A DNA stretch of 64,000 bases from Saprospiraceae bacterium (GTDB taxonomy: Bacteria > Bacteroidota > Bacteroidia > Chitinophagales > Saprospiraceae), in the NCBI GenBank assembly GCA_020630955.1, contig JAHDIE010000003.1, positions 21,558 through 85,557 on the forward strand. Direction: 5' to 3'. This document shows, in pieces, positions 7,708 through 24,477 of this stretch. How positions within the stretch are numbered: the first letter of the stretch is position 1; each line of letters begins with the position of its first letter. Below the pieces are notes generated by a model. That model saw only the letters and a list, made by a program, of their open reading frames with translations, searched no databases and was not told where the DNA came from. A program made the position numbers and the translations under genes.

Positions 7708-8982
7708 TTAAAAATTTAATGCACCTGATTTAAATGAATAAGTCCATTCAAAATCACTGGTGTTTGCTCCTTTGCTAATTACAGAAGCTGTTTGGTTTTG
7801 TAATTTCATTTTTTCATCAAAGGCAAGTTCATCTGCATTTTCTGATTTATCGTGACAAATTTCTTCCAATGATAGGGTGGAGACAAATTCGAGTTGGGCC
7901 AAATTTAATGCATCATTAAAAAAGTTTTCGGAACTATGATTGTCATCAATCTCTAGATCTCCATCAGCCGGAAAATTGAAAAAACTGCAATTATTTATAA
8001 TGCATGTTGCACCTTCTCTAAAATCAGCAATTTCAGAATTGAGACCCTTAAATGTGCCTCCAGTCAATCTGAAACTTCCAGAACTTGATCCTTCAGGACC
8101 ATCGACCTCCAATCCATGATCTGAATCAGGGCCAGCAATGTATACTATGTTATTGATGCTGCCAGCATATCCTTGATCGAAGTCGAAAGCATCGTCTCCT
8201 TGTGCCCAAACTATTGCATTATTTAAGTTGACGGTACCACCAAAAAATTCTATTCCATCATCTAAGTTTGCGACCACTTCAATATTAGAAACTTGTGTTT
8301 GCGACCCAACGCCTCCAAAGGTAATTCCGTTGATTTCATTATTTTCTCCGATAGATGCTCCACCATGTCTAATTGATAAATAACATATGGTTCCAGAGTT
8401 ATCTGCTGGATCATTACCACCATATAGGCCAAATGTATCATCAGCTGGTATTCCTTCGATTTGGAACTCGTCTACATCACCTTCGAAAGACCCTGGTGCA
8501 TTTCCTAAAATAATAAGACCTCCCCAAAGTCCATTTTGACTTGAATCTAAATTACTTCCAGAAGTCTGACCTACTTCAATATTATCTAAAATTGAAGTGA
8601 ATATAATTGGTGCTTCTGAAGTTCCACAAGCATTTATTTTACTTCCTCTAGATATTATTAGTGCTGATGCCAAGGATCCTGTACCTTCTGATCCCTTAAT
8701 AATGGTTCCTTCTTCAATGGTCAAGGTTGAACCAGGCATAACGACTACTTTTCCTGATATATTATATATATTTTCTGAGCTCCATGTTTCATCAGAATTG
8801 ATTACTCCAGTTTTTATTATAATGTTGGTTTCGTTGTTTGTATTACTTTGACATTCACAACTACCATTTAATTCTACAGGTATGAATCCTTCTTGACAAA
8901 AAATTCCTTCGCATACATCTTTGTCAGAACAAGCAGCAAATGAAATTGTAACAATTAATAAAATAAAATACTTTTGGATCAT
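7708..8982 (-). CDS. surface lipoprotein with EGF-like knot and beta-helix
   Basis: A 424-residue lipoprotein. I choose the ATG at 8982 because it gives a compact signal peptide with lipobox SFAAC; the longer ATG at 9015 only adds a charged tail and would overlap a -7-like box. After the lipid Cys comes a short Cys-rich EGF-like segment (CEGIFCQEGF...CEC). Then comes a long right-handed beta-helix, shown by ETWSSENIYNISGKVVVMPG, LTIEEGTIIKG, SALIISRG, NGLWGGLIILG and DDGIEFFGGTVN rungs. I associate this fold with Bacteroidota proteins paired with TonB receptors, from memory. It is first in a two-gene unit with the receptor downstream. The ligand is unknown. Confidence 0.82.
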   Translation of the reverse strand: MIQKYFILLIVTISFAACSDKDVCEGIFCQEGFIPVELNGSCECQSNTNNETNIIIKTGVINSDETWSSENIYNISGKVVVMPGSTLTIEEGTIIKGSEGTGSLASALIISRGSKINACGTSEAPIIFTSILDNIEVGQTSGSNLDSSQNGLWGGLIILGNAPGSFEGDVDEFQIEGIPADDTFGLYGGNDPADNSGTICYLSIRHGGASIGENNEINGITFGGVGSQTQVSNIEVVANLDDGIEFFGGTVNLNNAIVWAQGDDAFDFDQGYAGSINNIVYIAGPDSDHGLEVDGPEGSSSGSFRLTGGTFKGLNSEIADFREGATCIINNCSFFNFPADGDLEIDDNHSSENFFNDALNLAQLEFVSTLSLEEICHDKSENADELAFDEKMKLQNQTASVISKGANTSDFEWTYSFKSGALNF

Positions 8983-9017
8983 TGTTAATTGAATTTTTCT
9001 TTTTTTAAAATACAATC

Positions 9018-9148: not shown

Positions 9149-11002
9149 TTATTGCTTTAATTCGAGAATATAGGCTCTCATAGGTGATAATTCTAAGTCC
9201 TGATCAAGAACAAATTGTTCGTTCGTGATCACATCTTGAGCAATTTTAAAGTTGTTTAGCATTTCTGCAAACCTTTTAAGCTTTAATGTAGAATTGGTTT
9301 TGTTTTTATTGATGATTACCATTATTGATTCAGAATTGATATGTCTGAAATAAATATAGCAGCTATTTTGTGGTGCAAAATGAGTGAGTTTACCTTGATG
9401 AATCACTTTGTTGTGCTTACGCCAATTCAATAATTTTTCACAAAACTCTAAGGCCTTAATTTGTTCCTCTGTCATTCCTCTTTTTGCAGGAATGTTTACT
9501 TCTTCATTTGGCCAACCACCAGGAAAATCTGATCTGATATTTCCATGGCTGTTGTCCCCAGTGTTGGTCATTGCTATTTCTGTCCCATAATATAATTGTG
9601 GAATTCCCCTCATGGTTAAAATATAGCTAAGCGCCATTTTGTACTTTTGAAAATCATCACCAACCTGTGTGAAGATTCGACTCATGTCATGGTTGTCTGG
9701 AAATATTACCAATTGGCTTGGATCAGGGTATAAATAGTCTTGTGCAACAGATTCATATAGTTTGACTAAACCATCACTCCAACCTTCTTCTTTTTGCAAG
9801 GCATTATGTAGTGCAAAACACAAAGGGAAATCCATAAGTCCTGGCAAGCAAGAATTATTGCCATCTGAATTATTTTTACCTTCCTGCCAATAAGAAATGA
9901 GGGCAGGGGAGTCTACCCATTCCTCTCCGACAATATAAAAATATGGGTACTCGTTTTTAATAGCACAGGTCCAATCCGTCATAAATTCTTTAAATGGATA
10001 AGAGTAAGTGTCTTGACGAATACCTGTAATATGTGTATTTTCAATCCACCAGATTGAATTTTGAATTAGATAGGTGGACATGAAGCTGTTTCTTTGATTT
10101 AGGTCAGGCATTGCTTCTACAAACCATCCTTCTACCATTTCTTTTCGATCTATTTTTGATGCATATGGATCAAGTAAGGTGTATTTTCTATGGTTGGAGA
10201 AAGTGTAATCAGATTGTTGCTGGTAATTAACCCAATCACTAAATGGCGGGTCTTTCATCCAATAGTGTTCACTGCCACAATGATTGACAATGATATCCAT
10301 GATCATGCCTATGCCCATTTCGTTTGCTTTTTTTCCCAATTGGATATACTCTTCATTACTCCCAAACCTAGGATCCACATTGTAATAATCTGTTGTTGCA
10401 TAGCCATGATACGACCACTCTGGCATATCATTTTCTAATACTGGATTAAGCCAAATTGAGGTAAATCCAGTCTGCTGAATATAGGGCAGATAGTCGATGA
10501 TGCCTTGTATGTCACCGCCATGCCTTCCAAAATCTTGCTCTCTGGAAAGTCCTTCTTTCATGCCTTTAATTACATCATTTTTAGGATTCCCATTAACAAA
10601 TCGGTCAGGAGTGATCAGATAGATGACATCAGACGCGTTTGCTCCTTTTCTTGTGGCGCTATCCTCCCTTCGTTCCTTCAGTTCATAATCTATTGATTGA
10701 AGTACTTTCCCATCTCGAACAAACTCTAATTGAAAATGGTCAGCAGATTGATTGCTTGGAATTTCTAAATCTACAAACAGATAGTTTTTGCTTTCCGCCT
10801 GGTGCACTTTTTCAATGGTAACTAATGAGTTAGAAATCTTTAGGTCAAAAGTGGAGATATCCTCCCCATGTATGAGTAATTGGAGAGAGGTGTTTTTCAT
10901 TCCAGCCCACCAGAAAGGAGGTTCTATTTTATTGATATTTACTTGCGTAAATATATTACTAAAACTCAATAATAAACATTGAAGGATAAGCAGCTTTTTC
11001 AT
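9149..11002 (-). CDS. GH13 alpha-amylase / neopullulanase (SusA-like)
   Basis: A 617-residue secreted GH13 enzyme. A signal peptide (1-19) is followed by an N-terminal beta domain (about 22-110, with PPFWWAGM) as in cyclomaltodextrinases and SusA. The (beta/alpha)8 domain has all four conserved regions: DIIVNH (236-241), GIRQD with nucleophile D331, VGEEW with acid/base E360, and FPDNHD with D439. The C-terminal beta domain ends in MRAYILEL. No lipobox or T9SS tail, so it is probably periplasmic, like SusA. It would cut imported maltooligosaccharides. It is the last gene of the five-gene operon, one base after the CotH gene. Confidence 0.93.
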   Translation of the reverse strand: MKKLLILQCLLLSFSNIFTQVNINKIEPPFWWAGMKNTSLQLLIHGEDISTFDLKISNSLVTIEKVHQAESKNYLFVDLEIPSNQSADHFQLEFVRDGKVLQSIDYELKERREDSATRKGANASDVIYLITPDRFVNGNPKNDVIKGMKEGLSREQDFGRHGGDIQGIIDYLPYIQQTGFTSIWLNPVLENDMPEWSYHGYATTDYYNVDPRFGSNEEYIQLGKKANEMGIGMIMDIIVNHCGSEHYWMKDPPFSDWVNYQQQSDYTFSNHRKYTLLDPYASKIDRKEMVEGWFVEAMPDLNQRNSFMSTYLIQNSIWWIENTHITGIRQDTYSYPFKEFMTDWTCAIKNEYPYFYIVGEEWVDSPALISYWQEGKNNSDGNNSCLPGLMDFPLCFALHNALQKEEGWSDGLVKLYESVAQDYLYPDPSQLVIFPDNHDMSRIFTQVGDDFQKYKMALSYILTMRGIPQLYYGTEIAMTNTGDNSHGNIRSDFPGGWPNEEVNIPAKRGMTEEQIKALEFCEKLLNWRKHNKVIHQGKLTHFAPQNSCYIYFRHINSESIMVIINKNKTNSTLKLKRFAEMLNNFKIAQDVITNEQFVLDQDLELSPMRAYILELKQ

Positions 11003-11003
11003 T

Positions 11004-13262
11004 TTATTTTTTTTGAATCATAAAGCTTTTCACATGCATAGAATGATTGTTTTGAATCAATAAGCTGTATATGCCATTTTGTAAGTGCTTGATAGAAATT
11101 TGATTTGAATTCCTTTTGATTGGAAACACCTGTCCAATGGCGTTGACACAACTTAGCTGAAAATCATCTAAATTGATGTCTGTATCAATCGTTAATAGAT
11201 CGAAAGCAGGATTTGGGAATAACTGCAGATAGGAATAACTAATTTCATTATTGGATGATAGGTCATTGTCAAACCCAAAAGTTGGTTTATCAACAATCAT
11301 AAAATCCCCAAGGGCATTTGGTTTTCTAGCAAAGCTAAAATCAGTTTCCATCTCAGGAATTTCTATCTCATTGATGACCTTAAAATGGTTGTCTTTATCA
11401 TCATAAAGACCCAATGTCTCTCCTGATTTTTTGAGTTTGAAATTTGCATGTTGATTACCTTGAAACGGATCTCCATCTGCCCAAATAATAAGATATTGCT
11501 TGCTGTTTAACGCCGTATTGGGTAGTCTCCATTTTCCTGGATTATTTGGATTATCAGATAGACTTAATTTGCCAATGGGTAATACTGTTCCACTTGCATT
11601 ATATAGTTCAATCCAATCATCGTATTCGTCATATTCATCTTTTGCTATACTTGTGTTGGAACTTACAATTTCATTAATGATCAGATTGGGTGATTCTAAA
11701 TATCCTAATCTTACCGTTGCGTCCTTGCATAATGGATAGCTTCTGTAATTACCATCATTGTCAATAACTTCAATGTAGTAATTCATGATACCTTCTTGAT
11801 TCACCTGATGCGTATAGCTTGCTCCACTGTTTTGATCAACATTCAAAACATCCTCCTTCCATTCATTATTATCGAATCGATGATAGAAATTAATTCCAGC
11901 AATTTGTTCGTCATCATATCCTTTGATTTTAAATACCAATTCTTCTTTGGACCAATCTATGGTGATATTCTGAATAATGGGCGTTAAAGATCCAATGTTT
12001 ACTTCTTCTATTGCATTTTGATGACGTTGAGAAATATATTCCTTCATCCCTTTTTGTACATGATCACCGATACCATTTTCATAACTTTCTAGAAAGTCAT
12101 CATAGCTCCAGCCATAATCTAGACCAGCGACAGGATCGTCAATTCTAAAATCTTTGATCAATGCAAGCTTATTGTCCAAATAAGGTCCCAGAGTTTCGAC
12201 ATTAAAATAGTCTTCCAGTATCTCCTTCATGTAATGATCGAAACGTTCCTTATATTCTGGTATAGCAATTATACTTTCGTAAATAGGTCTTGCGCCTCCA
12301 TCAAAACTATTGTTTGACCAATTGTAAATGCTTATTTCCGTGAAGTCTCTTCCTGCCCAATCTATACCAAAAGTGTTGTCTAAATCATAAGAAATGAATT
12401 GAATTTGATCAGTACATGGGTTATGATATAGATAAAAATTATTCATATTAGAAATGGGTCCATCCCAATGGCCTATTAAAATGTCTAAGGCCATGATCTT
12501 AATGTAATTATCTACATCAAATATTCTTTCTAGTTCGCATTTAAAATCTTCACCTTGGTAATTGTTCAGTACGTCGATAAAGTGTGCCAACTTGGAATAA
12601 TCATCTTGGATTTTATTTGTTTTTAGATCATAGATTCTTCGCCCATTTGATTCTACTTTATACAAATCAGGGTTAAAGCCTAAATAATTAAGATCAGCAG
12701 GGTAGAGACATTTCCATAAATTTCCATTTTTATCCTCAAATCTTTTTGCGATAAATTCCTCATCAATATGTTCTACATTTATATACAAGCCTAGATAATC
12801 TCCATTGACAAACAATTCGACATGATTAGATCTACTTGCTGGAACCCCAATCCAGTTTGAAAGATCCCATGCTAACTTTGATCTTATGATGGATGGGTCA
12901 TTATGCTCTCCATTGATGTTCATTTTTTCAAGACCATAGAATTTTCTCCCTGGTTTGAATGTATTAAACGAAATTTTAATTGATTTTTTGGCAGCACCCC
13001 TTGACGTATTTCCTCTTAGTCGTACACCTACTTGTTCTAACGTGTCTTTGATTTCTGAACTTGTAAAAATAAATTGTGCCTCGTATTCTTCATTACTCCA
13101 AGGATCATTGGCAATTGCTTCGATAAACGTCTCATCAATGTTAATATCGATTCTTGGTACCTCGTCATCTACAAATACTGGACCTGGCTCAGGGTTTAGA
13201 AATTGTGCATTCAATGAAAAAGAAATGCAAAACATAAAAGTAAAAAATATTGCTCTAGTCAA
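11004..13262 (-). CDS. T9SS-exported CotH-kinase protein with lamin-tail domain
   Basis: A 752-residue protein: signal peptide (1-20), CotH kinase-like domain (about 80-360), lamin-tail domain (about 526-650, LIINEIVSSN...DDWIELYN) and a T9SS type A sorting tail (about 678-752, LFPNPAFDLLTI). The CotH part shows RLRGNTSRG, KMNINGEHNDPSIIRSKLA, GHWDG (near 265) and YDLDNTFG (D293/D295). These correspond to the catalytic and metal-binding positions of the atypical kinase family. The start is TTG, overlapping the previous stop by 8 bp, and a later ATG would destroy the signal peptide. It lies between two amylase genes, which is unusual company. Its phosphate donor outside the cell, and whether it is active, are unknown. 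Confidence 0.88.
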   Translation of the reverse strand: MTRAIFFTFMFCISFSLNAQFLNPEPGPVFVDDEVPRIDINIDETFIEAIANDPWSNEEYEAQFIFTSSEIKDTLEQVGVRLRGNTSRGAAKKSIKISFNTFKPGRKFYGLEKMNINGEHNDPSIIRSKLAWDLSNWIGVPASRSNHVELFVNGDYLGLYINVEHIDEEFIAKRFEDKNGNLWKCLYPADLNYLGFNPDLYKVESNGRRIYDLKTNKIQDDYSKLAHFIDVLNNYQGEDFKCELERIFDVDNYIKIMALDILIGHWDGPISNMNNFYLYHNPCTDQIQFISYDLDNTFGIDWAGRDFTEISIYNWSNNSFDGGARPIYESIIAIPEYKERFDHYMKEILEDYFNVETLGPYLDNKLALIKDFRIDDPVAGLDYGWSYDDFLESYENGIGDHVQKGMKEYISQRHQNAIEEVNIGSLTPIIQNITIDWSKEELVFKIKGYDDEQIAGINFYHRFDNNEWKEDVLNVDQNSGASYTHQVNQEGIMNYYIEVIDNDGNYRSYPLCKDATVRLGYLESPNLIINEIVSSNTSIAKDEYDEYDDWIELYNASGTVLPIGKLSLSDNPNNPGKWRLPNTALNSKQYLIIWADGDPFQGNQHANFKLKKSGETLGLYDDKDNHFKVINEIEIPEMETDFSFARKPNALGDFMIVDKPTFGFDNDLSSNNEISYSYLQLFPNPAFDLLTIDTDINLDDFQLSCVNAIGQVFPIKRNSNQISIKHLQNGIYSLLIQNNHSMHVKSFMIQKK

Positions 13263-16200
13263 TGATGGATATTTTAGTTGTTAAAATGCTATCCGAACTT
13301 CTAAGCTCAAGAAAATAGATCCCACTTTTAATGGCTGGGATGACGAATTCAGGACCTAAGTTGATTTTTAATCCATCGATGGAATACAAAGCTATAGAAT
13401 GAAATTTGACATCATGGTCTATTTCAATATTTAGTTTTGTGCCTGCCTTAATTGGGTTTGGAAATATGCTGCCATTCAATGTAATATACTCATTTACGGA
13501 AGTGAAAAAACCTCCTGGGGGTGTTATCTTTTGAGAAGTATAAATTTGATATTCTCCAGGTGCAAATGTGATATTTTCATTTACATTGGTGACATCTATT
13601 TCCTTTCCTGTGAAATACTCATACCAAACACCTTCGTATGGAAAATTTGGATTTACATCTGATGCTGTAATTCTAAAATTTGCAAGACTGATTAAGTCAA
13701 GGTCTGTATGGTTAATATGTACAGATTTAACGAAGGAGTTGCCATCCCTCAATTGATGAGTCCCTTCCAAAAATACCTGAGGGAAACTATTCCGTAAGAA
13801 GGTCAAAGCAGCAATACGGTCATAGAGAGAAGCACGTGATGAATCATCTTGGTAATCCCATCTGATTGGTTTTGGATCCAAACGACAATCGGGATTGATG
13901 GCCCCATTGACACATCGATTGATGGAGTAGTCGTAACCTAGTTCTCCAAATTGCCACAACATTTTAGGTCCTGGGATACATAAATAAATAGAGCTTGCCG
14001 CAGCAATTCTTTCCATTCTTGTTGTAAAGTCTTTGGTGCTGTATTCCGAATTTTCATTTCCATATTCTTTTAATTTGTAGCCCATGCGTTCTTCGTCATG
14101 GCTTTCCATATAGGCAATCAGATTCGGATTTTCCCAACCACGCTCTGTATAGTCAGACCATTTTAAATTTGAGCTATAGCCCATTGCTGCCTCAGCATAA
14201 TCGTGGGTTGCATTACCCCATAACATCATCCCATAATCTGATAGATTAATTTCCTCATCGTTATCAGCAAAGTGCTCCATGATCACATAAGATTGAGGGT
14301 CAATAGACCAAATATGATCGGAGTAATCCTTAAGTATGGTTACTCGGCTTAAGTCAAATTGTGACATTGCAGCAGCATTGGTTCCTGAAAATTTTTGTGT
14401 CAATCCCTTTGATAGATCAAATCTGAATCCATCAAAATGAAATTCCTCTATCCAATAAGTAAGGACTTGTTTAACCCATTGTCTCGTAAAACTACTTTCA
14501 TGGTTAAAGTCATAACCTACATTGAAAGGATGTTTGGGTTCTTCATTAAGATATGGACTATCTTCTGAAGGTCTAAATTCGGTAGGATTCCAATACATTT
14601 GACAAAGAGGACTTTGAGAAAAGGCATGATTGAATACTACATCCAAAATAACAGCAATTCCTCTTTTGTGCGCTTCATTGATGACTGCTTTTAATTGTTT
14701 TCGGCTTCCATAATATTTATCAACAGCCATATGGAAACTAGGGTTATATCCCCAGCTCTGATTTCCTTCAAATTCAGAAATCGGCATGAGTTCAATTGCC
14801 GTAACACCTAGGCGTTCTAAATAATCCAAAGTGTCTAGTAGAGATTTGTAATTTTTATCTTCTAGAAAATCTCTCATCATGATTTCATAGATTATGAGAT
14901 TACTTTGATCCACTCGATCAAAATTTTGATCCTCCCATTGAAAAATATCTGGAATTGTATCAAATGCAGTAACTATTCCTGAGGTCATTCCATCTGGATA
15001 TGGAGGTAATTCCGAAAGCACATCAGCGGGAACAGTGTCATCATTCCATGGGTCTAAAACAACCATTGAAAATGGATCAGCAATGGTGATTCTTCCGTCT
15101 ATATAATACTGATAGCTATTCTGACCATTCTCAAAAGCGGACATTGGAAGTTCTATCCAAAATGTATTCTGGTTTTCTGCTTTTTTAAGCCTGAAATCTA
15201 AGTCTACCTTATATTCATTGGCCGGACACAATAGAAAGACTAATTCTTTGTTTGGTGCTGTCAATTGGAATACATAACTGCTGTCGGAGTAATAATTGAT
15301 ACCGTTTTTAATTCCTGAAGGCGGATTCTCCAATACCTCATTTGGGTCTAACACAAAATAAGTTCTGGTAATTGTTATTTCTTCTGCACTGTTTGTGATT
15401 ATGAATTCCAATGTGTGCTTTCCTAATCCATCTGCTAAAAATTCTAATCCTACGTTGTCGGTGAGTGAGTTGTATTTGGTTATCCCATTATCAATAATCT
15501 CAACATTTGCTGTTTGACTTAATTCCATTTGAACCAAAAATGATTCGCCCTGATAGACGATGGTGTTTTCTTTTGGATTGATCAAATTGACCAACAGGCC
15601 CTGATCGGGAGGGTATATATCCAGAAAGATATCAGACCCATCGGTGTCTCTGCCAACAATACTACCATTGCTATTTCGAAAAACAAATGCTAATTGTTCG
15701 ACAATTTCTCCAGGAGATATGCCATAGTAATCTTCAATATTATAGCTCAAAGAATAAATATCATTTCCTTCAGAAGTCATTAAGGTATTATTATCAGGAG
15801 TACCCCAATTACCTTGCACATGTTGCCAATCACTAGGATTTGTAGATTCATTGGTTATCAAACCAGTATGCGCATAGACATTGCCTGTAAAGCCTTCTAA
15901 AGCAGCATTTCCTTCCGATGCATCAAAGTATACAGTGATATCATCCAGTTGGGTTGGGAATGGTGGTTCTGTCCAAACTACTTCAGCTGAAGATTCTACC
16001 TCATTGCTTTCGAGAATGTTAATGATCGAATTGATTTCCACTTCAGTTATACTTTGATATTTACCGGAAGGCCAGTGGATAACCAAGCTATCAATTTGTT
16101 CAATATCATTCAGCCCAAAATGAATTCTAGAAGAATTCTGTGAGCAATAGCCAGATCCAACAATAAGTTCTTTTGTCCAACTTTGACCTTGGGCAAACAA

Positions 16201-17412
16201 GCATACTTTGGCTCCTATTGCTTGTCTATTGGATATAGTTCCTTCAAGATTAATACTTAGGAAGTTTTTTTGATCTTGAATATTCTGAAATATTTGATTT
16301 CCATCTTCTCCTACATTACATACAAATAAATCAATCAACCCATCATTATTGAAATCTGAAGTAGCTGATCCATATGATGCATACATGTTTTGCAAATCAT
16401 CTACTTGATCGCTCATCGAGAATTGAAGATTACCTTGATTGCGTATTAACTTATTACAGAAATATTCATTGTTGACAGGGTAGTGTCCGTCATTAGCAAC
16501 ATATAAATCTAAAAGTGAATTATTGTTGCTGTCGAAAAAATTTGTTCCCCAAGACATGCCCCGATCTTTCAAACTTTCAATGGTATTTTCAGTAAAAATC
16601 CCAGGGCTATTTTGTAGATATAAAACATTTTTGTGCAAATTAGTAAAGTATATATCTGTTAAGCCATTGTTATCCAAGTCAGCGACATCTACACCCATGC
16701 CTTGGCCTTTGTAACCAGTATTACTTTCTGATGTTACATTGGTAAAATATCCCCCATCATTTCTAAATAATAAATTTCCTTTTTCCCCATCTAAAGTTTG
16801 ATATAAGTCTTGGTCTCCATCATTATCATAATCGAAGAAAATGGCTCCCATCGATTGTTCTAAATTACTTATCCCTGAAGGCACAATATAATTTACAAAG
16901 AAATCTCCTTCATTGCGATATAAAATGTTTTCAGCATTAAATTGAGCCAGATAAATATCAAGATCTCCATCATTGTCAAAATCTACTGCATTAACTGATT
17001 GAATGTTGTGATTTTCAAAAATGCCGTAAGTTAATCCAACCTCTTCAAACGAACCGTTGGTATTCTTGTATAATTTACTTCTTTCAAATTGATTTGCAAC
17101 AAATAGGTCAAGGTCCCCATCATTGTCAAAGTCAATCCAAATACTGCCTATCGTTTTACCATCATCGGCAAGACCTAGTAATTCGGCTTTTTCAATAAAT
17201 TGAAAATTTCCGTAATTGACAAACAAAGAATTTGGTCCATTTTTTCTGCTAATATAAATGTCCTCAAAACCATTTTTGTCAAAATCACCAATCGCAACTC
17301 CTCGATTTACACCACCTTCATTAATGGCCAATTCAGCACTTCTATCAATAAAAGATTGACTACAAATACTAAGGGATGCCAAAAGAAAAGTTATTGCAGA
17401 TAATAATTTCAT
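13255..17412 (-). CDS. FG-GAP/ASPIC - GH13 amylase fusion, T9SS-exported
   Basis: A 1385-residue multidomain protein. After a signal peptide (1-19), residues 20-380 hold FG-GAP/VCBS propeller repeats with calcium-type DFDNDGDLD loops (near 94, 144, 194). A UnbV/ASPIC domain follows (about 395-468, SSRIHFGL, LVIHWPSGK), then a starch-binding-like domain (about 478-600), a beta domain (605-695) and a CBM48-like domain (700-800). The GH13 domain (about 840-1200) keeps every key residue: DVVFNH (924-929), GFRFD with nucleophile D999, IMEH with E1046, and ESHDEE with D1106. A T9SS tail closes it (FPNPIKAG). FG-GAP/ASPIC units normally occur without a catalytic domain. It follows SusD by 9 bp and overlaps the CotH gene by 8 bp. 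It is likely a cell-surface alpha-glucan hydrolase of the pullulanase/amylase type. Confidence 0.9.
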   Translation of the reverse strand: MKLLSAITFLLASLSICSQSFIDRSAELAINEGGVNRGVAIGDFDKNGFEDIYISRKNGPNSLFVNYGNFQFIEKAELLGLADDGKTIGSIWIDFDNDGDLDLFVANQFERSKLYKNTNGSFEEVGLTYGIFENHNIQSVNAVDFDNDGDLDIYLAQFNAENILYRNEGDFFVNYIVPSGISNLEQSMGAIFFDYDNDGDQDLYQTLDGEKGNLLFRNDGGYFTNVTSESNTGYKGQGMGVDVADLDNNGLTDIYFTNLHKNVLYLQNSPGIFTENTIESLKDRGMSWGTNFFDSNNNSLLDLYVANDGHYPVNNEYFCNKLIRNQGNLQFSMSDQVDDLQNMYASYGSATSDFNNDGLIDLFVCNVGEDGNQIFQNIQDQKNFLSINLEGTISNRQAIGAKVCLFAQGQSWTKELIVGSGYCSQNSSRIHFGLNDIEQIDSLVIHWPSGKYQSITEVEINSIINILESNEVESSAEVVWTEPPFPTQLDDITVYFDASEGNAALEGFTGNVYAHTGLITNESTNPSDWQHVQGNWGTPDNNTLMTSEGNDIYSLSYNIEDYYGISPGEIVEQLAFVFRNSNGSIVGRDTDGSDIFLDIYPPDQGLLVNLINPKENTIVYQGESFLVQMELSQTANVEIIDNGITKYNSLTDNVGLEFLADGLGKHTLEFIITNSAEEITITRTYFVLDPNEVLENPPSGIKNGINYYSDSSYVFQLTAPNKELVFLLCPANEYKVDLDFRLKKAENQNTFWIELPMSAFENGQNSYQYYIDGRITIADPFSMVVLDPWNDDTVPADVLSELPPYPDGMTSGIVTAFDTIPDIFQWEDQNFDRVDQSNLIIYEIMMRDFLEDKNYKSLLDTLDYLERLGVTAIELMPISEFEGNQSWGYNPSFHMAVDKYYGSRKQLKAVINEAHKRGIAVILDVVFNHAFSQSPLCQMYWNPTEFRPSEDSPYLNEEPKHPFNVGYDFNHESSFTRQWVKQVLTYWIEEFHFDGFRFDLSKGLTQKFSGTNAAAMSQFDLSRVTILKDYSDHIWSIDPQSYVIMEHFADNDEEINLSDYGMMLWGNATHDYAEAAMGYSSNLKWSDYTERGWENPNLIAYMESHDEERMGYKLKEYGNENSEYSTKDFTTRMERIAAASSIYLCIPGPKMLWQFGELGYDYSINRCVNGAINPDCRLDPKPIRWDYQDDSSRASLYDRIAALTFLRNSFPQVFLEGTHQLRDGNSFVKSVHINHTDLDLISLANFRITASDVNPNFPYEGVWYEYFTGKEIDVTNVNENITFAPGEYQIYTSQKITPPGGFFTSVNEYITLNGSIFPNPIKAGTKLNIEIDHDVKFHSIALYSIDGLKINLGPEFVIPAIKSGIYFLELRSSDSILTTKISIID

Positions 17413-17421
17413 ACTGATTTT

Positions 17422-19620
17422 TTAATATCCAGGATTTTGTTGCAGATTAGGATTTGCCCCAATATCTGCAGCTGGAATAGGAAATATATTTCGGTAATTG
17501 TCAACCTGTGTACCTTCCATGACGCCTCCTTTCCATTGCCACACGTAATCGCCATCTGTAAATTGCCCAAATCGGATGAGATCTGTTCTTCTATGGCATT
17601 CCCAATACAGTTCTCGCGCACGCTCGTCCAAAATCAAATCAAGACTTAATTCTTCTGGAGTCACGTTTGCGGAAGCGCTAAGGTAGGCCCTGGTTCTTAC
17701 CGCATTAAAATAATCTGCAGCTGATTGAGTAGCGGATCCGCTGCGAAGGATTGCTTCTGCGGCCATTAAGTAAAAATCGGCTAATCGAAAAACAGGAAAG
17801 TCGGTATCTGCGTGTGTGTTATCAGAACCTGGGGTCCCATCCGAATTGATATTTTTAAATTTATTCACAGCGTATCCATCCGTAAAGTTAGTCATATCAA
17901 CAATATCTAAGGTCTGCCCATCAGAATGGAATAGCGGTCTTCTGTCAAAACTAAGAGAAGTAATTTTATATGTATAATCGGGCCTGTTTAGGTATAAAAG
18001 TATTTCCCATTCTCCAGCTTCAATAGGGATATTCGCACCATCAAATTGTAGCAAGCCATTAAAATCGTTATCACCTAAACTAAGAACCCAATCATCGTTG
18101 GCTCTAAATTTAATTTCTCCATTGCTCGTGACTAAGGTAGCGCGCATAGCGTTTTTCTCGACATCAAATTCCAAGTCGATATCTTCATCCCATCCAACAT
18201 CCGTCGCATCACCAAGCACTCCCCAAGTCTGTAGATCCATTTCGTAACTATTGTTGTTTAGATCAACCTTGATGTAATAAAGACCAGCTTGTGGTACGTT
18301 AATGTTTGCTCCAAATTGTTCTAGACTTCCATCTCCACCATTGTCTCCAAAGTAAGGTGCATTTTCGTCAGGAATTCTAGTGATTAAAAATTCGCCATTG
18401 TCTTCTGGAAAATATTTATATCCTTCGAAGATATTATCTGAATTAATCGAGGACAGAGCATTATTGGTATCACTATAATCAAAATCCTGAAAAGAGCCAG
18501 GTGTGTATATTTTGGGGTATTGCACAGTGTTCCCCGGATTTGGATTGACATACACTCCACCTAATTCTCCAAACTTCTCAATCAGCTGACGGGTTGTTCT
18601 TGTTCCTCCCCAACCTCCACCGACTCCTGAATCAGCAGGATTCATCGTGCCTCCAATCCCCGCATTGATAATAAAGGTCGTTCCTCCCCAGGTTCTAGTA
18701 TTGATTCCATCATAAGCAATAGGGAAGATGATTTCATCTGAGGTGTGGTTGTCGGCCAAAAATAGATTTTGATAATTTGGATCTAAAGTATAGCCTGCGT
18801 TTATGATTTTTTCACAATATTCCAAACATTCTATATATTTAGATTGACCAATATAAACTTCTGCATTAAGATAGAGTTTTGAAAGCAAAGCCCAAACAGC
18901 ACCTTGGTCAGCTCGTCCGTATTCGTTGGTTCGCACAGGTGCAATGCTGTTTTCAATATCAAGCAATTCTGATTCTATATAATTAAATAGGTCATTGGCA
19001 TTGGTCTGCTGAGGGAAAAATGCTCCAACCAAATCTTCTTCTGTCACAAATGGAACATTTCTAAACAGGTCAAGAGCATGCCAATAACTGAGTGCTCTTA
19101 AAAATCTTGCTTCTGCACGAAATCCTTGAATTTCGGTTTGTAGGGATGGAGATACACCTCGCCCATTTAATTTTTCTTCGGTTGTCTCTCTTAGGAATTC
19201 ATTACAGATGGGAATTTGGTAATAAATTCTACTGTACATAGCAAAAATAAATCCATCCTCACCAATCCAGTCTTGTTCATGAAAATCTTTGATGGTTTGA
19301 TCATTCCAACCAACGACAGCTTCTTCTGTGGTTAATTCTTGGTGATACCACAGCATTCTAAGATATTGACCAAAGCCTTCATCTATACCTTCGATATCGC
19401 CATCTCCAGCCGGTCCTTGTTGACCAGTTACAGCCAGTCCCGCGTACAATTTTGCAAGTACTTTTCTGTAAGAATCTTCAGATTCATAGACTTGTTCGGA
19501 AGTTTGAACATCTTCATCAATTGGGGTCGTGTCTAGATCTTTAAAGCAACTAGTGATCATTATGCTCAAGGCAAATAGGCCTAGTGCTAAATATAATTTC
19601 TGTGAATTCATTGTCTTCAT
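17422..19620 (-). CDS. susD: SusD-like glycan-binding lipoprotein with SusE/F-type insert
   Basis: A 732-residue SusD/RagB protein, about 200 longer than usual. The signal peptide ends at lipobox IMITSC (C25). The SusD TPR core is seen before (ERFLRAL-type AEARFLRALSYWHALDLF) and after the insert (FRLADFYLMAAEAILRSG; LDERARELYWECHRR; terminal NPNLQQNPGY). Residues about 395-556 do not belong to the SusD fold. They form one partial and one full copy of the SusE/SusF glucan-binding repeat, with FGDNGGDGSLEQFGANI and then WGVLGDATDVGWD, KFRANDDW, GANIPIEAG. The same repeat fills the divergent protein at 22690. It pairs with the SusC gene 11 bp upstream and should bind alpha-glucan at the surface. 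Confidence 0.92.
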   Translation of the reverse strand: MKTMNSQKLYLALGLFALSIMITSCFKDLDTTPIDEDVQTSEQVYESEDSYRKVLAKLYAGLAVTGQQGPAGDGDIEGIDEGFGQYLRMLWYHQELTTEEAVVGWNDQTIKDFHEQDWIGEDGFIFAMYSRIYYQIPICNEFLRETTEEKLNGRGVSPSLQTEIQGFRAEARFLRALSYWHALDLFRNVPFVTEEDLVGAFFPQQTNANDLFNYIESELLDIENSIAPVRTNEYGRADQGAVWALLSKLYLNAEVYIGQSKYIECLEYCEKIINAGYTLDPNYQNLFLADNHTSDEIIFPIAYDGINTRTWGGTTFIINAGIGGTMNPADSGVGGGWGGTRTTRQLIEKFGELGGVYVNPNPGNTVQYPKIYTPGSFQDFDYSDTNNALSSINSDNIFEGYKYFPEDNGEFLITRIPDENAPYFGDNGGDGSLEQFGANINVPQAGLYYIKVDLNNNSYEMDLQTWGVLGDATDVGWDEDIDLEFDVEKNAMRATLVTSNGEIKFRANDDWVLSLGDNDFNGLLQFDGANIPIEAGEWEILLYLNRPDYTYKITSLSFDRRPLFHSDGQTLDIVDMTNFTDGYAVNKFKNINSDGTPGSDNTHADTDFPVFRLADFYLMAAEAILRSGSATQSAADYFNAVRTRAYLSASANVTPEELSLDLILDERARELYWECHRRTDLIRFGQFTDGDYVWQWKGGVMEGTQVDNYRNIFPIPAADIGANPNLQQNPGY

Positions 19621-19631
19621 TGGGTTATCAT

Positions 19632-22571
19632 TTAAAAGTTAGCACTTAATCCAAAAACTAATGTTCTAGGTCTCGGATAAACATCATTATCAATTCCATC
19701 ATCGATTTCAGGGTCTAAACCTTGGTACTTGGTCATCAACAAAGGATTTTGAATGGTAAAATAAATGCTATTTACAAATGGGGCTAACTCGGACAAGTCG
19801 GCTGATAATGTAATATGGTCTAGCCTTAAAAAAGAAGCATCTTGCACAAAGTGATCAGAAAAAGTGACATTGTTTTGATTTTCGATATTTAAATCTACAC
19901 CAACTTGATGAATATTATATAAGACACCTTGACTCGAAACCAATCTTTTTAGATTGCCTATATCAGTATGCACATTATTGAATACATAATTGCCAGTTAA
20001 TGCTCTTGCTCCAAAAGAAAACCCAAATATTTTATAATTGAAATTACTGGTTAGCCCAAAGCTATAATCTGCTGCCGGTTTTTCTAGACGATAGAAGTCA
20101 TTGTCAGCTCCATCACCATTTCTGTCCACAAATTCACCTTCTAATAGGTTTCCTTGCTCATCATATAGTTGTTCTTTCACATAAAATGAAAATGGTGCAT
20201 AACCAACAGTATGGATTTGAATATTTGATCCTACTCCGCCAGCGACACCGCCAACTTGAATTCCTTGATAACTAGGATCGTCTGATGCGGTAAGTTTCGT
20301 AATTTCATTTCGGTTATATGATGTATTAAAAGCAAGATCCCAGCTAAATTCTTTGGATTGAAGAGGGCTTAAGAACAGAGAAAGTTCAACGCCTTGATTC
20401 TGCATGTTTCCAACATTGGTGGTAATAAAATTGGTCAAATTTGTTCCAGCTGGGACAGGAATTCGATTGAGAAGATCCTTGGTGTCTCTTTGGTAAACAT
20501 CAAGAGATCCAGAAAGTCTATCAGGTATAATTGAGAAATCAAGGCCTAAATTTATAGTAGAAGTCTCCTCCCACTTAATTTGAGAATCATATCCTTCAGG
20601 TCTAAGCGTAAGGACTTGTTCATCTCCAAAAGGGTAGCTTGCATTGTCAAAACTGAGTGTATACTGAGGTAAGTATGCATATCTGTTTCCAATATTTTCC
20701 TGTCCTGTAATTCCCCATCCAGCCCTAACTTTTAGACTGTTGAATAGGCTGTTCTCATTGTTTAAAATTTTGTAAGCTAAGGCAGCTGCTGGGAATAAAC
20801 CCCATCTGTTTTCTGATGAAAATCGAGAAGTCCCATCTCTTCTAAGACTTAAGGTAAGGAGTAATTTTTCATTATAATCATAATTAATTCTTCCAAACAA
20901 AGAAACCAAGAACAATTCATCTGCATTCCTTCCAGCTGATTGCGTCGATGGGGTTCCTGCTACATCTGAGTTAGAGAAAGACTCTTCAAACTGGAATCTT
21001 TGCCAAGAATAACCACCCATTAAATCAAATCCATGTTGACCTTTGTTTTTGGTGTAGTTAAGATAAAATTCTAAAAGGCTGTTTGTTTTTTGTTCATCAT
21101 AAATATTATTTACCCCACCTCCAGTTAAAGCATTAAACTCAAATGCAGCATCTGTGGGAACAAACACTTCGCCATTAGATACTGTTTTATCATAGGCTAG
21201 GTTTAAATTTGCTCTTAAGTCAGGGAATTGGGGCAGACGATAATCTATACTTCCATTCATTACAATCCTATTTACCTTTGAATCATCTTGTCTTTGATTT
21301 AATTGAGCTAATGGATTTTTTGGAGCAATGAATTGTGGTATACCTTGAGGATCGAGCCAGGTTGTATATCCTCCATAGACACTTTCGGAATCTAGAATTT
21401 CTTGTGTAGGGTCAAAAGCTAAGGCATTTCCGATGGCACCTCTATCAGCAAAGTGATTTTTAGACCAAATACCCTTCAGTCCATAATTAACTTGTAAGGT
21501 GTTATTAAAAAATCCAGGGTTGATATTTAGTCCAATTGAATTCCTTTGATAGTTGTCGGTTTTTAACACTCCATTTTTGTTGAGATATCCAAGACTTAAA
21601 CGATATGGTATTTCCTTTAATCCTCCAGACAAATTGATATTGTGTTCTTGTCCAATAGCAGTTTGGTAAATTTGATCTTGCCAATCAGTATTTGCCGACC
21701 CCATGGCCATAGCTTCATCGGAGTCTTCTCCAAATCTATTGTTGATCAAATCTCTATATTCAATCGCATCCAGAACATCAACTTTGTTTGTGATTTTGCC
21801 GAAGCTGAGATTGCCATTGTAGCCTAGATGTAATTTCTCTGAAGATTTCCCTTTTTTGGTAGTGATTATTATTACGCCACCTGCAGCCCTATTTCCATAA
21901 ATGGCCGTCGCAGAAGCATCTTTTAATACAGTAAAAGTTTCGACATCATTTGGATTTATAACATCCAAAGGGTTTCTGTTTCCTGCAATTTCTCCATTCT
22001 CCAAAGGAACTCCATCAATCACGATCAGTGGATCATTGGATGCATTCAACGAAGATTCTCCTCTAATTCTTATTTTGGATCCGCCTCCAGGATCTCCATT
22101 GGTTGTGATCGAAACTCCAGCTACCTTTCCAGCCAATAATTCTTGGGGACCTGTTAGTGCCCCACGATTAAAATCTTTCGAGTTGACACTTTGAATGGCG
22201 CCTGTCGCATCATCTCGCTTAATGGTTCCATAACCAATGACCACAACTTCATCCAATAATTCTCCAAAGCTCATTTCAATATTAAATTGACTTTGGGTTC
22301 CTACAGAGATCTCTTGATTGGCATAACCGGTATAACTAACCAATAAGACTTCTGAATCATCTTTGACCTCTAATCTGAAATTACCATCTAAATCTGTTGT
22401 GGTGCCAATTCCGGTAGAATTTAATATAACAGTTGCCCCAATCAAGGGATCTCCAGTTTGTGCATCTGTAATATTTCCATTGATGGCTCTTTGGCCGAAT
22501 GAAATTGTGCCTATTGTGAGTACTAGTAAAGTACTCAAAATGAAATTTGGTGTGAGTTGTTTTCTTCTCAT
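19632..22571 (-). CDS. susC: SusC-like TonB-dependent oligosaccharide importer
   Basis: A 979-residue SusC/RagA receptor: signal peptide (1-27), carboxypeptidase-regulatory-like domain (ITDAQTGDPLIGATV, about 30-110), and the SusC TonB-box region DEVVVIGYGT. The plug carries the family hallmarks LIVIDGVP, TVLKDASATAIYGNRAAGGV and IITTKKG. The C-terminus is a barrel closing in LVFGLSANF. First gene of the alpha-glucan operon; SusD follows after 11 bp. Import energy would come from TonB-ExbBD, which is not encoded here. The 118-bp gap upstream separates it from a divergent SusE/F-type gene, so one control region probably serves both. Confidence 0.95.
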   Translation of the reverse strand: MRRKQLTPNFILSTLLVLTIGTISFGQRAINGNITDAQTGDPLIGATVILNSTGIGTTTDLDGNFRLEVKDDSEVLLVSYTGYANQEISVGTQSQFNIEMSFGELLDEVVVIGYGTIKRDDATGAIQSVNSKDFNRGALTGPQELLAGKVAGVSITTNGDPGGGSKIRIRGESSLNASNDPLIVIDGVPLENGEIAGNRNPLDVINPNDVETFTVLKDASATAIYGNRAAGGVIIITTKKGKSSEKLHLGYNGNLSFGKITNKVDVLDAIEYRDLINNRFGEDSDEAMAMGSANTDWQDQIYQTAIGQEHNINLSGGLKEIPYRLSLGYLNKNGVLKTDNYQRNSIGLNINPGFFNNTLQVNYGLKGIWSKNHFADRGAIGNALAFDPTQEILDSESVYGGYTTWLDPQGIPQFIAPKNPLAQLNQRQDDSKVNRIVMNGSIDYRLPQFPDLRANLNLAYDKTVSNGEVFVPTDAAFEFNALTGGGVNNIYDEQKTNSLLEFYLNYTKNKGQHGFDLMGGYSWQRFQFEESFSNSDVAGTPSTQSAGRNADELFLVSLFGRINYDYNEKLLLTLSLRRDGTSRFSSENRWGLFPAAALAYKILNNENSLFNSLKVRAGWGITGQENIGNRYAYLPQYTLSFDNASYPFGDEQVLTLRPEGYDSQIKWEETSTINLGLDFSIIPDRLSGSLDVYQRDTKDLLNRIPVPAGTNLTNFITTNVGNMQNQGVELSLFLSPLQSKEFSWDLAFNTSYNRNEITKLTASDDPSYQGIQVGGVAGGVGSNIQIHTVGYAPFSFYVKEQLYDEQGNLLEGEFVDRNGDGADNDFYRLEKPAADYSFGLTSNFNYKIFGFSFGARALTGNYVFNNVHTDIGNLKRLVSSQGVLYNIHQVGVDLNIENQNNVTFSDHFVQDASFLRLDHITLSADLSELAPFVNSIYFTIQNPLLMTKYQGLDPEIDDGIDNDVYPRPRTLVFGLSANF

Positions 22572-22689: not shown

Positions 22690-24477
22690 ATGTTAAGAAA
22701 TTTACTAACTATTGTTGGTCTTGTTTTTCTTTCTCTTGGATTATTTGGTCAGATGTCAGTGGGTATCATTGGTTCTGCAACACCTGGGGGATGGGATGAA
22801 GATACCGACATGACACTTATTAATGAGATGGACAGTATCTGGTCCGTTGACATTACTTTATTTGATGGGGCTGTGAAATTTAGAGCTGATGACGATTGGG
22901 CAGTCAATTGGGGTTCATCAGATTTTCCAGCAGGGATAGGAGAACAGGATGGATCTGATATTCCAGTTTATGCAGGCGATTATACAGTAACATTAAACAC
23001 AAAAACTGGAGAATACTATTTTGATGTGGATAGTGACATTGGAATAATTGGAGACGCTACACCAGGTGGCTGGGATGACGATACAGATATGTTCAAAGAT
23101 CAAACTGATTCTAACAAATTTTTTATTATGATTGATTTGGTTCCTGGAGGAGCTAAATTTAGAAAAGATGATGACTGGGCTGTTAACTGGGGTGGGCCTG
23201 ATTTTCCTACAGGTGTTGCAACCGCAGATGGCGACAACATTCCTGTTGATGCTGCAGCACCTTACTTTGTAACCTTGGATACACTCACTGGTGATTATAG
23301 TTTTGAGTCCATGGTTACCTATGAGACCATTGGTATTATTGGTTCTGCTACGCCTGGCATGTGGGATGAAGATACAGATATGAATCAAGATCCGAATGAT
23401 CCTAATATCTGGACACTAAGCATGACTTTAACCGATGGTGAAGCAAAATTTAGAGCTGACAACGATTGGGTAGTAAACTGGGGGGCTCCAGATTTTCCTA
23501 CAGGAACTGGTGTGATGGGTGGAGATAATATCCAAGTTCTTGCTGGTGATTATTTCATCACATTCAATTCTGAAACCGGTGAATATAACTTTAAAGAAAT
23601 TGTAGAATATGCTTCAGTTGGAATTATTGGTGATGCTACTCCTGGTGGATGGTCTGATGACACTGACCTGGAAAAAGATCCTAACGATGTACATATGTGG
23701 AGTACAAGATTAGTTCTAGGTGATGGAGAAGCAAAATTCAGGGCTGATGATGATTGGGCAGTAAACTGGGGTGCTGGAGACTTTCCTGCCGGTGTTGGAG
23801 TTCAAGATGGTGCAAATATTCCTGTTACTGCTGGAGATTACATCATCACATTTAATTCTCTTTCAGGATCTTATAGCTTCACCGAAATTGTTGAGTATGG
23901 CACAGTTGGGCTAATTGGTGTTTCTGGTCCTTTTGGAGATTGGGAAAATGATACTCCTTTAAATAAGGATGCCAATGACTTCAATATCTGGACCCTGAAT
24001 AGTGTTGATCTTATCGACTTTGATGAAGCAACAGATGGAGGAGTAAAATTCAGAGCCGAGAATGATTGGGCAGTCAACTGGGGTGCAGAAGATTTTCCAA
24101 CAGGAATTGGTGTAGGTGGAGGACCAAATATCCGACCAGTGGCAGGAACTTATAGTATTTGGTTTAATTCAGGAACAGGTGAATACATTTTTGGCGATCC
24201 AGTTTCTACGCAAGAAATTGTTAGTCCATTAGAGATCAATCTATTTCCTAATCCAGCAAATAATCAATTAAATATAGATCTAAGTTCAATCAATTTTGAA
24301 GGTGAGGTAATCTTAAAGATTATCAATATGAATGGTGGACTTGTTAAAACTATAATACGAAATGATAATGATCTAAGCAATATTAATATTGCAGAATTAG
24401 CCACAGGTCAATACATGTTAAGCATACAAAATGACAAATATATAATTGGAAAAAGATTTTCATTAATAAGGAATTAA
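22690..24477 (+). CDS. five-repeat SusE/F-type glucan-binding protein with T9SS tail
   Basis: A 595-residue protein made almost wholly of five copies of one ~95-residue module, starting near residues 22, 114, 210, 307 and 401. Each shows the pattern GIIGxATPGGWDxDTDM, KFRADDDWAVNWG, DFPxG, xxNIxVxAGxY. This is the SusE/SusF-type starch-binding repeat. Unlike SusE and SusF it has a plain Sec signal peptide (1-21, no lipobox) and a T9SS type A tail (about 515-595, LFPNPANNQLNI). It is therefore exported across the outer membrane by T9SS rather than anchored as a lipoprotein. It is divergent from SusC and ends at a good terminator. No catalytic domain; a binding role on alpha-glucan is inferred. 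Confidence 0.9.
   Translation: MLRNLLTIVGLVFLSLGLFGQMSVGIIGSATPGGWDEDTDMTLINEMDSIWSVDITLFDGAVKFRADDDWAVNWGSSDFPAGIGEQDGSDIPVYAGDYTVTLNTKTGEYYFDVDSDIGIIGDATPGGWDDDTDMFKDQTDSNKFFIMIDLVPGGAKFRKDDDWAVNWGGPDFPTGVATADGDNIPVDAAAPYFVTLDTLTGDYSFESMVTYETIGIIGSATPGMWDEDTDMNQDPNDPNIWTLSMTLTDGEAKFRADNDWVVNWGAPDFPTGTGVMGGDNIQVLAGDYFITFNSETGEYNFKEIVEYASVGIIGDATPGGWSDDTDLEKDPNDVHMWSTRLVLGDGEAKFRADDDWAVNWGAGDFPAGVGVQDGANIPVTAGDYIITFNSLSGSYSFTEIVEYGTVGLIGVSGPFGDWENDTPLNKDANDFNIWTLNSVDLIDFDEATDGGVKFRAENDWAVNWGAEDFPTGIGVGGGPNIRPVAGTYSIWFNSGTGEYIFGDPVSTQEIVSPLEINLFPNPANNQLNIDLSSINFEGEVILKIINMNGGLVKTIIRNDNDLSNINIAELATGQYMLSIQNDKYIIGKRFSLIRN
22753..24200 (+). repeat. five tandem ~280-bp coding repeats (SusE/F-type module)
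   Basis: The DNA is internally repetitive because the encoded module recurs five times. The clearest nucleotide similarity is around the GATGATTGGGCAGT / AACTGGGG segment that encodes DDWAVNWG. Repeat 5 is the most divergent; its opening reads LIGVSGPFGDWEND. Such repeats could recombine to change copy number. Confidence 0.8.

Follow-up and report, generated by a model that had tools for sequence, protein, structure and literature searches.

A SusE-type module pair embedded in a Saprospiraceae SusD lid protein, predicted to act as a starch-capture arm

Among the described proteins, the closest to those of this locus are SusD, SusE and SusF of Bacteroides thetaiotaomicron. SusE and SusF are separate lipoproteins with further N-terminal parts, whereas in the protein reported here two modules of their kind, and nothing else of them, lie inside SusD. 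A starch-binding module within a Sus component has a precedent in SusG: according to an extract of PMC11267923, CBM58 is inserted in domain B of this enzyme, and without it the enzyme was more active on soluble but less active on insoluble substrates. CBM58 belongs to another module family, however, and its host is an enzyme rather than a transporter lid. In the levan and dextran utilisomes (SusCD, a surface glycan-binding protein and a GH), the glycan-binding protein associates with SusCD (PMC7618045, in extract) and is held by protein contacts, in contrast to the covalent merger found here. As far as the same extract goes, its authors regard the starch system as possibly more dynamic, and it is debated whether the surface glycan-binding proteins of that system are a fixed part of SusCD or loose partners. 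In F. johnsoniae, dextran polymer is bound by a SusE-type protein, and oligosaccharide by the protein of SusD type (PMC10316084, in extract).

The window, i.e. the whole 64,000-nucleotide stretch of a Saprospiraceae contig that was analysed, contains the following features.

9149..11002, minus strand: GH13 cyclomaltodextrinase-type enzyme, 617 aa (Pfam)
11004..13262, minus strand: protein with CotH, lamin-tail and T9SS-tail domains, 752 aa (Pfam)
13255..17412, minus strand: FG-GAP/UnbV_ASPIC and GH13 protein, 1385 aa, directly after susD (ORF, Pfam)
17422..19620, minus strand: susD, 732 aa, lipoprotein cysteine C25 (ORF list, Pfam, NCBIfam)
17425..17946, minus strand: SusD C-terminal part, residues 559-732 (Pfam, PDB-sequence alignment, blastp)
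17947..18555, minus strand: insert, residues 356-558, a pair of SusE/F-type (X25-like) modules (blastp, AF2, fold matches)
17947..18228, minus strand: module 2 (R2), residues 465-558, predicted binding residues kept (alignments, model)
18229..18528, minus strand: module 1 (R1), residues 365-464, a complete beta-sandwich that has lost its predicted binding residues (alignments, model)
18556..19545, minus strand: SusD N-terminal part, mature, residues 26-355 (alignment to B. thetaiotaomicron SusD, 3ck7)
19632..22571, minus strand: susC, TonB-dependent partner of SusD, 979 aa (NCBIfam OMP_RagA_SusC, 719 bits)
22690..24477, plus strand: divergent SusF/SusE-type protein of 595 aa with five modules and a T9SS sorting domain (PF16411, E 2.9e-28)

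The GH13 genes (for the FG-GAP/ASPIC-GH13 protein and the cyclomaltodextrinase-type enzyme) make an alpha-glucan the very likely substrate of the locus. A 435-aa ORF (7708..9015, minus strand), situated between the GH13 enzyme and a TonB receptor, had no Pfam match at E <= 0.001.

The susD product scored above the Pfam cut-offs for SusD_RagB (128.8 bits against 23.1; E 4.4e-37) and SusD-like_3 (29.9 bits against 27; E 8.2e-7). NCBIfam NF033071 (SusD) was its best family by far at 429 bits, which is under the cut-off of 725 of this exception-type model; the protein is therefore a member of the SusD family and not SusD in NCBI's narrow sense. The neighbourhood is that of a SusD, with susC directly upstream in addition to the lipoprotein cysteine. 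In an alignment of 77 of the 123 distinct SusDs collected, C25, R88, W105, D107 and W337 are invariant; W311 is not listed among the invariant positions. Residues R88, W105, W311 and W337 align opposite R81, W98, Y296 and W320 of B. thetaiotaomicron SusD (3ck7), and V103 opposite W96, these five being sugar-contacting residues of that protein. The starch-site positions of the window SusD itself are largely kept, D107 among them. An AF2 model of the whole protein with the same 77 SusDs as input (pLDDT 91.4, pTM 0.81) has the SusD fold, matching 3jys (Z 50.6) and 3ckb (Z 48.7; rmsd 1.6 over 456 residues) with an rmsd of 1.5-1.6 over 454-456 residues. The whole core superposes on B. thetaiotaomicron SusD (3ck7-3ckc) and 3jys with Z 47.8-50.6 at 40-42% identity.

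The first-pass annotation had described this SusD as about 200 codons longer than usual, and length comparison bears this out: in the set collected, insert-free SusDs have 522-600 aa, complete two-module ones 720-764 aa. The window protein has about 203 extra residues, in a segment absent from eight relatives (L086-L093). Since in six of these eight the blastp blocks stop at residue 355 or 356 and resume at 559, the insert is placed at approximately 356-558 (17947..18555), beginning some 19 residues past the starch-site position W337. The PDB-sequence matches to 3jys (B. vulgatus) and 3ck7 are interrupted in the same place, roughly 200 residues of the query (350 to 558 or 574) remaining uncovered between the two matching parts. 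3jys runs almost straight through the insertion site without a SusE module; B. thetaiotaomicron SusD, also without one, has a loop there that is some 35 residues longer. The segment first singled out, residues 395-556, does correspond to 18438..17953, and an insert is present there. Its limits were drawn too narrowly, as module 1 starts at about residue 365, some 30 residues earlier, and the description as one partial and one complete repeat was mistaken, since the models show two full strand sets (370-464 and 466-555 in the whole-SusD AF2 model) and thus two complete modules.

Several lines of evidence bear on the nature of the insert. In many sister loci, susD is followed by a separate SusE gene; most of these genes, which code for about 345 aa, begin like lipoproteins, and their C-terminal 190 or so residues match insert residues 366-554 at 31-48% identity (blastp) and align residue by residue through both modules. 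Against PF16411 (SusF_SusE) the window insert gave E = 5.7e-4 at 20.7 bits, below the Pfam cut-off of 27.5, which two other two-module SusD inserts exceeded (G417, 35.1 bits; G407, 31.8 bits). In an alignment of 46 members (22 inserts and 24 SusEs), PF16411 matched 44 and X25_BaPul_like 32 of the 46 sequences at E <= 0.01. Cut near the module border, the halves of the insert gave no SusF_SusE match in separate Pfam scans, and the insert profile, run against the PDB sequences, matched BT3088 only, neither SusE nor SusF. In the window genome PF14292 (SusE) had no match at E <= 0.001, and matches to PF16411 at E <= 1 are confined to susD, the T9SS gene, a 3905-aa ORF and a weak 190-aa frame. The 3905-aa ORF (G000:C17:8864-13828) has weak PF16411 matches, of 28.7 bits with neighbours.

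A model of the insert alone, built from the 46 sequences, reached pLDDT 96.7 and pTM 0.89. Its best fold match in the PDB is SusF 275-485, the last two modules (4fe9; Z 12.3 over 175 residues), followed by SusE 179-387 (4fch; Z 11.8 over 173 residues) and the Sca5 X25 module (Z 10.3); the rmsd of 5.2-5.4 for the SusF and SusE matches is that of two modules superposed together. Foldseek agrees (insert model against SusE, E 2.2e-6). The insert corresponds to the solved module pair of SusE and to the two final modules of SusF, with their order preserved (4fch, 4fem, 4fe9). Other solved proteins of SusD fold, 5cjz (BT4246), 7bll (BT3013) and 7nek, have chains of 603-615 residues of which 415-442 aligned, and must therefore have sizeable extra parts; the insert profile did not pick them up by sequence. 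As judged by sequence comparison and modelling, what is embedded in this SusD as a conserved pair of modules is the double starch-binding domain from the C-terminus of SusE. The original proposal of SusE/F-type modules inside a genuine SusD is accordingly upheld by profile and fold matches. It was to be given up if profiles gave no SusE/SusF hit, but PF16411 did give one, for the window insert under the Pfam cut-off, or if the segment was an ordinary SusD loop, but it is missing from insert-free relatives and matches SusE in fold and profile.

The same insertion site was surveyed in 123 distinct SusDs, comprising the window protein, L014-L093 (80 loci kept of 318 relatives) and those of survey loci, and classified by the number of residues between window positions 352 and 562. 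Two modules are present in 76 (204-220 residues), the first module only in eight (119-151; L097, L099-L103, L105 and L106), the second only in three (102-112; L098, L104 and L131), an unrelated insert in two (88-89) and no insert in 34 (6-21); these counts are biased towards the two-module state, since the set was gathered with a two-module query. The two unrelated inserts, of about 80 residues, are in the 613-aa SusDs of L132 and L133. In a sample of the family (199 genomes searched), 103 genomes gave a SusD match, which in 53 of them runs continuously through two modules, and two further matches (G511, G544) appear to be split at contig ends. In an even sample of the phylum (395 genomes searched), at least three of the 101 genomes with a match have two-module SusDs, all of the window's family among the matches listed, which also include at least eight first-module and at least three second-module SusDs. 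Strain-named records with two-module SusDs are those of Maribellus sediminis, Neolewinella aurantiaca, Neolewinella antarctica and Marinifilum caeruleilacunae; the remaining two-module records examined are mostly metagenome bins. One two-module SusD (L059) lies on a contig labelled Chlorobiota, either a mislabelled bin or a transfer. A 742-aa SusD is common to L014, whose record is labelled Saprospiraceae, and to G514, a genus-mate of the window genome.

The length of the site does vary among SusDs, as the longer B. thetaiotaomicron loop and the unrelated inserts of L132 and L133 demonstrate, and the segment could be regarded as an ordinary variable loop or as an effect of assembly or chance. 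Hardly any credence is given to this: the same insert recurs in 76 of the 123 distinct SusDs, which come from numerous assemblies and include strain-named records, and its fold and profile matches are to SusE. On the fold and profile evidence an ordinary SusD loop was ruled out.

A quick, unrooted tree was built from 74 two-module inserts and the C-terminal pairs of 51 SusEs (profile match covering at least 170 positions); one branch with SH-aLRT 98 has all the inserts to one side; divergent SusE-like ORFs, e.g. those of L042, L056, L057, L059, L066, L070, L073 and L078, stood outside the SusE trees. The eight first-only inserts form one group (99), as do the three second-only ones (96). On the SusD-core tree of 120 rows, from which the fragments L080 and L082 as well as L135 were omitted, the two-module state needs five changes, two of them forced by starred branches. 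A 69-row core subset, which also omits L138 and both SusDs with unrelated inserts and uses 26 of the 74 two-module rows, needs six changes, four of them forced; here a single clade of all insert-bearing SusDs was rejected (p-AU 2.2e-62), while a single clade of the two-module SusDs was not (p-AU 0.076). First modules (two-module and first-only) group together, apart from those of SusE, in a 64-row subset (SH-aLRT 98) but not among all 133 rows, where the two-module state needs five changes. For the second modules (59 rows) one group was not rejected (p-AU 0.594). The 64- and 59-row trees omit the long-branch L072, L060, L064, L141, L091, L093, L080, L089, L021 and L023, the rest being sampled. 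On these sequence trees one old insertion followed by losses, transfer between species, or several insertions are all possible origins.

The divergent gene at 22690..24477 had been credited with five copies of the same repeat, and five module matches were indeed obtained (residues 23-503), ahead of a Por_Secre_tail match in residues 518-585 (E 6.4e-12); all five repeats (T1-T5) are of the module-2 type. It had also been suggested that modules had moved within the locus. A recent transfer from this gene into susD would be in keeping with the shared module family and locus, and the best insert-to-repeat identity is 48% over query residues 57-140. The trees speak against it: both window modules are nearest to the SusD modules of L014 and its kin, the insert being 69% identical to that of L014 over its whole length, and T1-T5 are each nearest to same-kind repeats in other species. 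These placements come from single-module trees with few columns, the repeat comparison using 20 of the 74 two-module inserts and 20 of the 51 SusEs. Many of the insert-bearing loci also showed no multi-module ORF. With the pairs on one side of a branch against the 51 SusE pairs, transfer from the five-repeat gene is unsupported, and we consider it very improbable.

In the window no SusE ORF follows susD, and the slot which susE has in sister loci is occupied by the 1385-aa GH13 protein. Among the two-module loci, 52 have a SusE within 500 bases after susD, 20 have none in at least 1.3 kb downstream, and four end too soon to be judged. A few calls were made by hand: in L050 and L057 the start of the SusE ORF overlaps SusD, and the 445-aa "SusE" of L126 was reclassified as a cut-off ORF with four modules. 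As 52 of the 72 loci that could be judged keep SusE, the insert is not a simple replacement for it. Nineteen of the 20 SusE-less loci have site data, and all 19 belong to the subclade of the window, a single clade of 20 rows in the core tree (SH-aLRT 97); they therefore represent one history and not 19 independent cases. All three key residues of module 1 are kept in none of these 19 as against 45 of 51 loci with SusE. In six nearby loci (L037, L043, L058, L060, L064 and L075) SusE is present and one to three of the module-1 residues are gone.

A multi-module ORF was found in 15 of the 20 subclade loci, 13 of them complete with five modules and two truncated; in the five remaining loci the flank is too short, upstream or on both sides, for a judgement. 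By Pfam the T9SS tail was assigned for the window protein only, and the set compared includes lipoprotein-type proteins, e.g. those of L086, L092, L136, L139 and L141. One member of the family, a 908-aa frame (G396:C68:18266-20566), has several PF16411 matches, so module number varies among the multi-module proteins. Since four near relatives (L029, L037, L043 and L058) hold both SusE and a multi-module ORF, the order suggested is that the multi-module protein was gained first and SusE lost afterwards.

Binding positions were predicted from conservation and the two-tryptophan binding pattern described for X25 modules (PMC9112005, in extract), not from contacts in complexes. In the first module of SusE the corresponding W, K and W are kept in 51 of 51 rows. 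The 54 two-module SusDs outside the subclade are similar, with W1a in 52, K1 in 51 and W1b in 48 for module 1, and W2a, K2 and W2b in 53 each for module 2. The SusD of Maribellus sediminis (L056) is an example in which the module-1 residues are retained. Within the subclade (20 rows), module 1 has W1a in seven, K1 in two and W1b in none, and module 2 has W2a in 13, K2 in 15 and W2b in 12; all three key residues of module 2 remain in 11 of the 19 SusE-less loci. This partial erosion of module 2 weakens the view that binding is the point of the insert. The window protein has F380, L412 and E419 at the module-1 positions and keeps W477, K504, R506, N508, W511 and N530 in module 2. Of the extra starch site which the first-pass annotation expected, module 2 at most would qualify on its residues, and module 1 would not.

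Sixteen pairs of SusDs were compared, a few proteins belonging to more than one pair. They yielded dN/dS values for 21 of the 32 modules (0-0.115, in many cases a little higher than in the core) and for 13 of the 16 cores (0.018-0.089); all others, including the window-L014 pair, were saturated. Where the pairs are close, the insert is under purifying selection. The module 1 of L028/L083 has a dN/dS of 0.039 without the key residues, so that the fold is kept there without the binding site.

This last case, together with the decay of the module-1 residues in the subclade (7, 2 and 0 of 20) and the high confidence with which the window insert is predicted to fold, would suit modules that are mainly structural and dock the lid to SusC, a partner SusD, the GH13 enzyme or the T9SS protein, glucan binding being secondary or absent. 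Pure docking needs none of the key residues, however, and outside the subclade both modules keep them (48-53 of 54). SusC length also shows no visible difference between SusD classes among loci with a complete SusC ORF (13 two-module without SusE, 49 other two-module, nine insert-free and two single-module), so a docking loop to match the insert is not evident at this coarse level. A mainly structural role of the modules is considered rather unlikely; docking is the leading alternative, especially for module 1.

The preferred reading is that the SusE module pair embedded in the SusD lid probably acts as a starch-capture arm, on account of the precedents in the extracts of PMC10316084, PMC7618045 and PMC11267923 and the proximity to W337. 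The embedded modules, fixed to the lid, would hold long alpha-glucan at the transporter, and short chains would then pass to SusD's own site. The arm may point over the SusC pore, as the first-pass annotation suggested. In the window protein only module 2 is predicted to bind; module 1 may have become a non-binding spacer or docking domain, and the capture of bulk polymer may have shifted to the five-module T9SS protein. A wider reading is put forward tentatively, with chances a little short of even: the loop after W337 would be a socket for glycan-binding modules, occupied in different lineages by a SusE pair, a lone first or second module or an unrelated insert, the pair a predicted capture arm on the lid, and the lineage of the window one that lost susE, handed bulk binding to the T9SS protein and retained module 1 as a non-binding hinge. 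If this socket reading is true, it would be natural evidence that SusE modules act at the mouth of SusCD.

Within the open-licence literature, a scope in which subscription papers mostly and preprints wholly fall outside and in which some sources are extracts, no report of SusE modules within SusD was found. The parts are known; their arrangement as SusE within SusD appears to be a new and widespread SusD variant. The merger may unite starch capture and import in one molecule. As a covalent joining of SusD and SusE over many genera, it offers a natural experiment on whether glycan-binding proteins are fixed or loose partners, and since its junctions (355|559) are known, the merged protein, putatively one of two functions, can be cut apart there and set beside sister proteins that lack the insert. 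In Saprospiraceae and Prolixibacteraceae, SusE domains are concealed in some SusD annotations, and loci without a susE gene may still hold them.

Other genes of the window have counterparts in related loci. ORFs of 1151 and 1394 aa related to the 1385-aa FG-GAP/UnbV_ASPIC-GH13 protein follow susD in L014 and L020, and L020 also has a relative of the CotH protein at the corresponding place.
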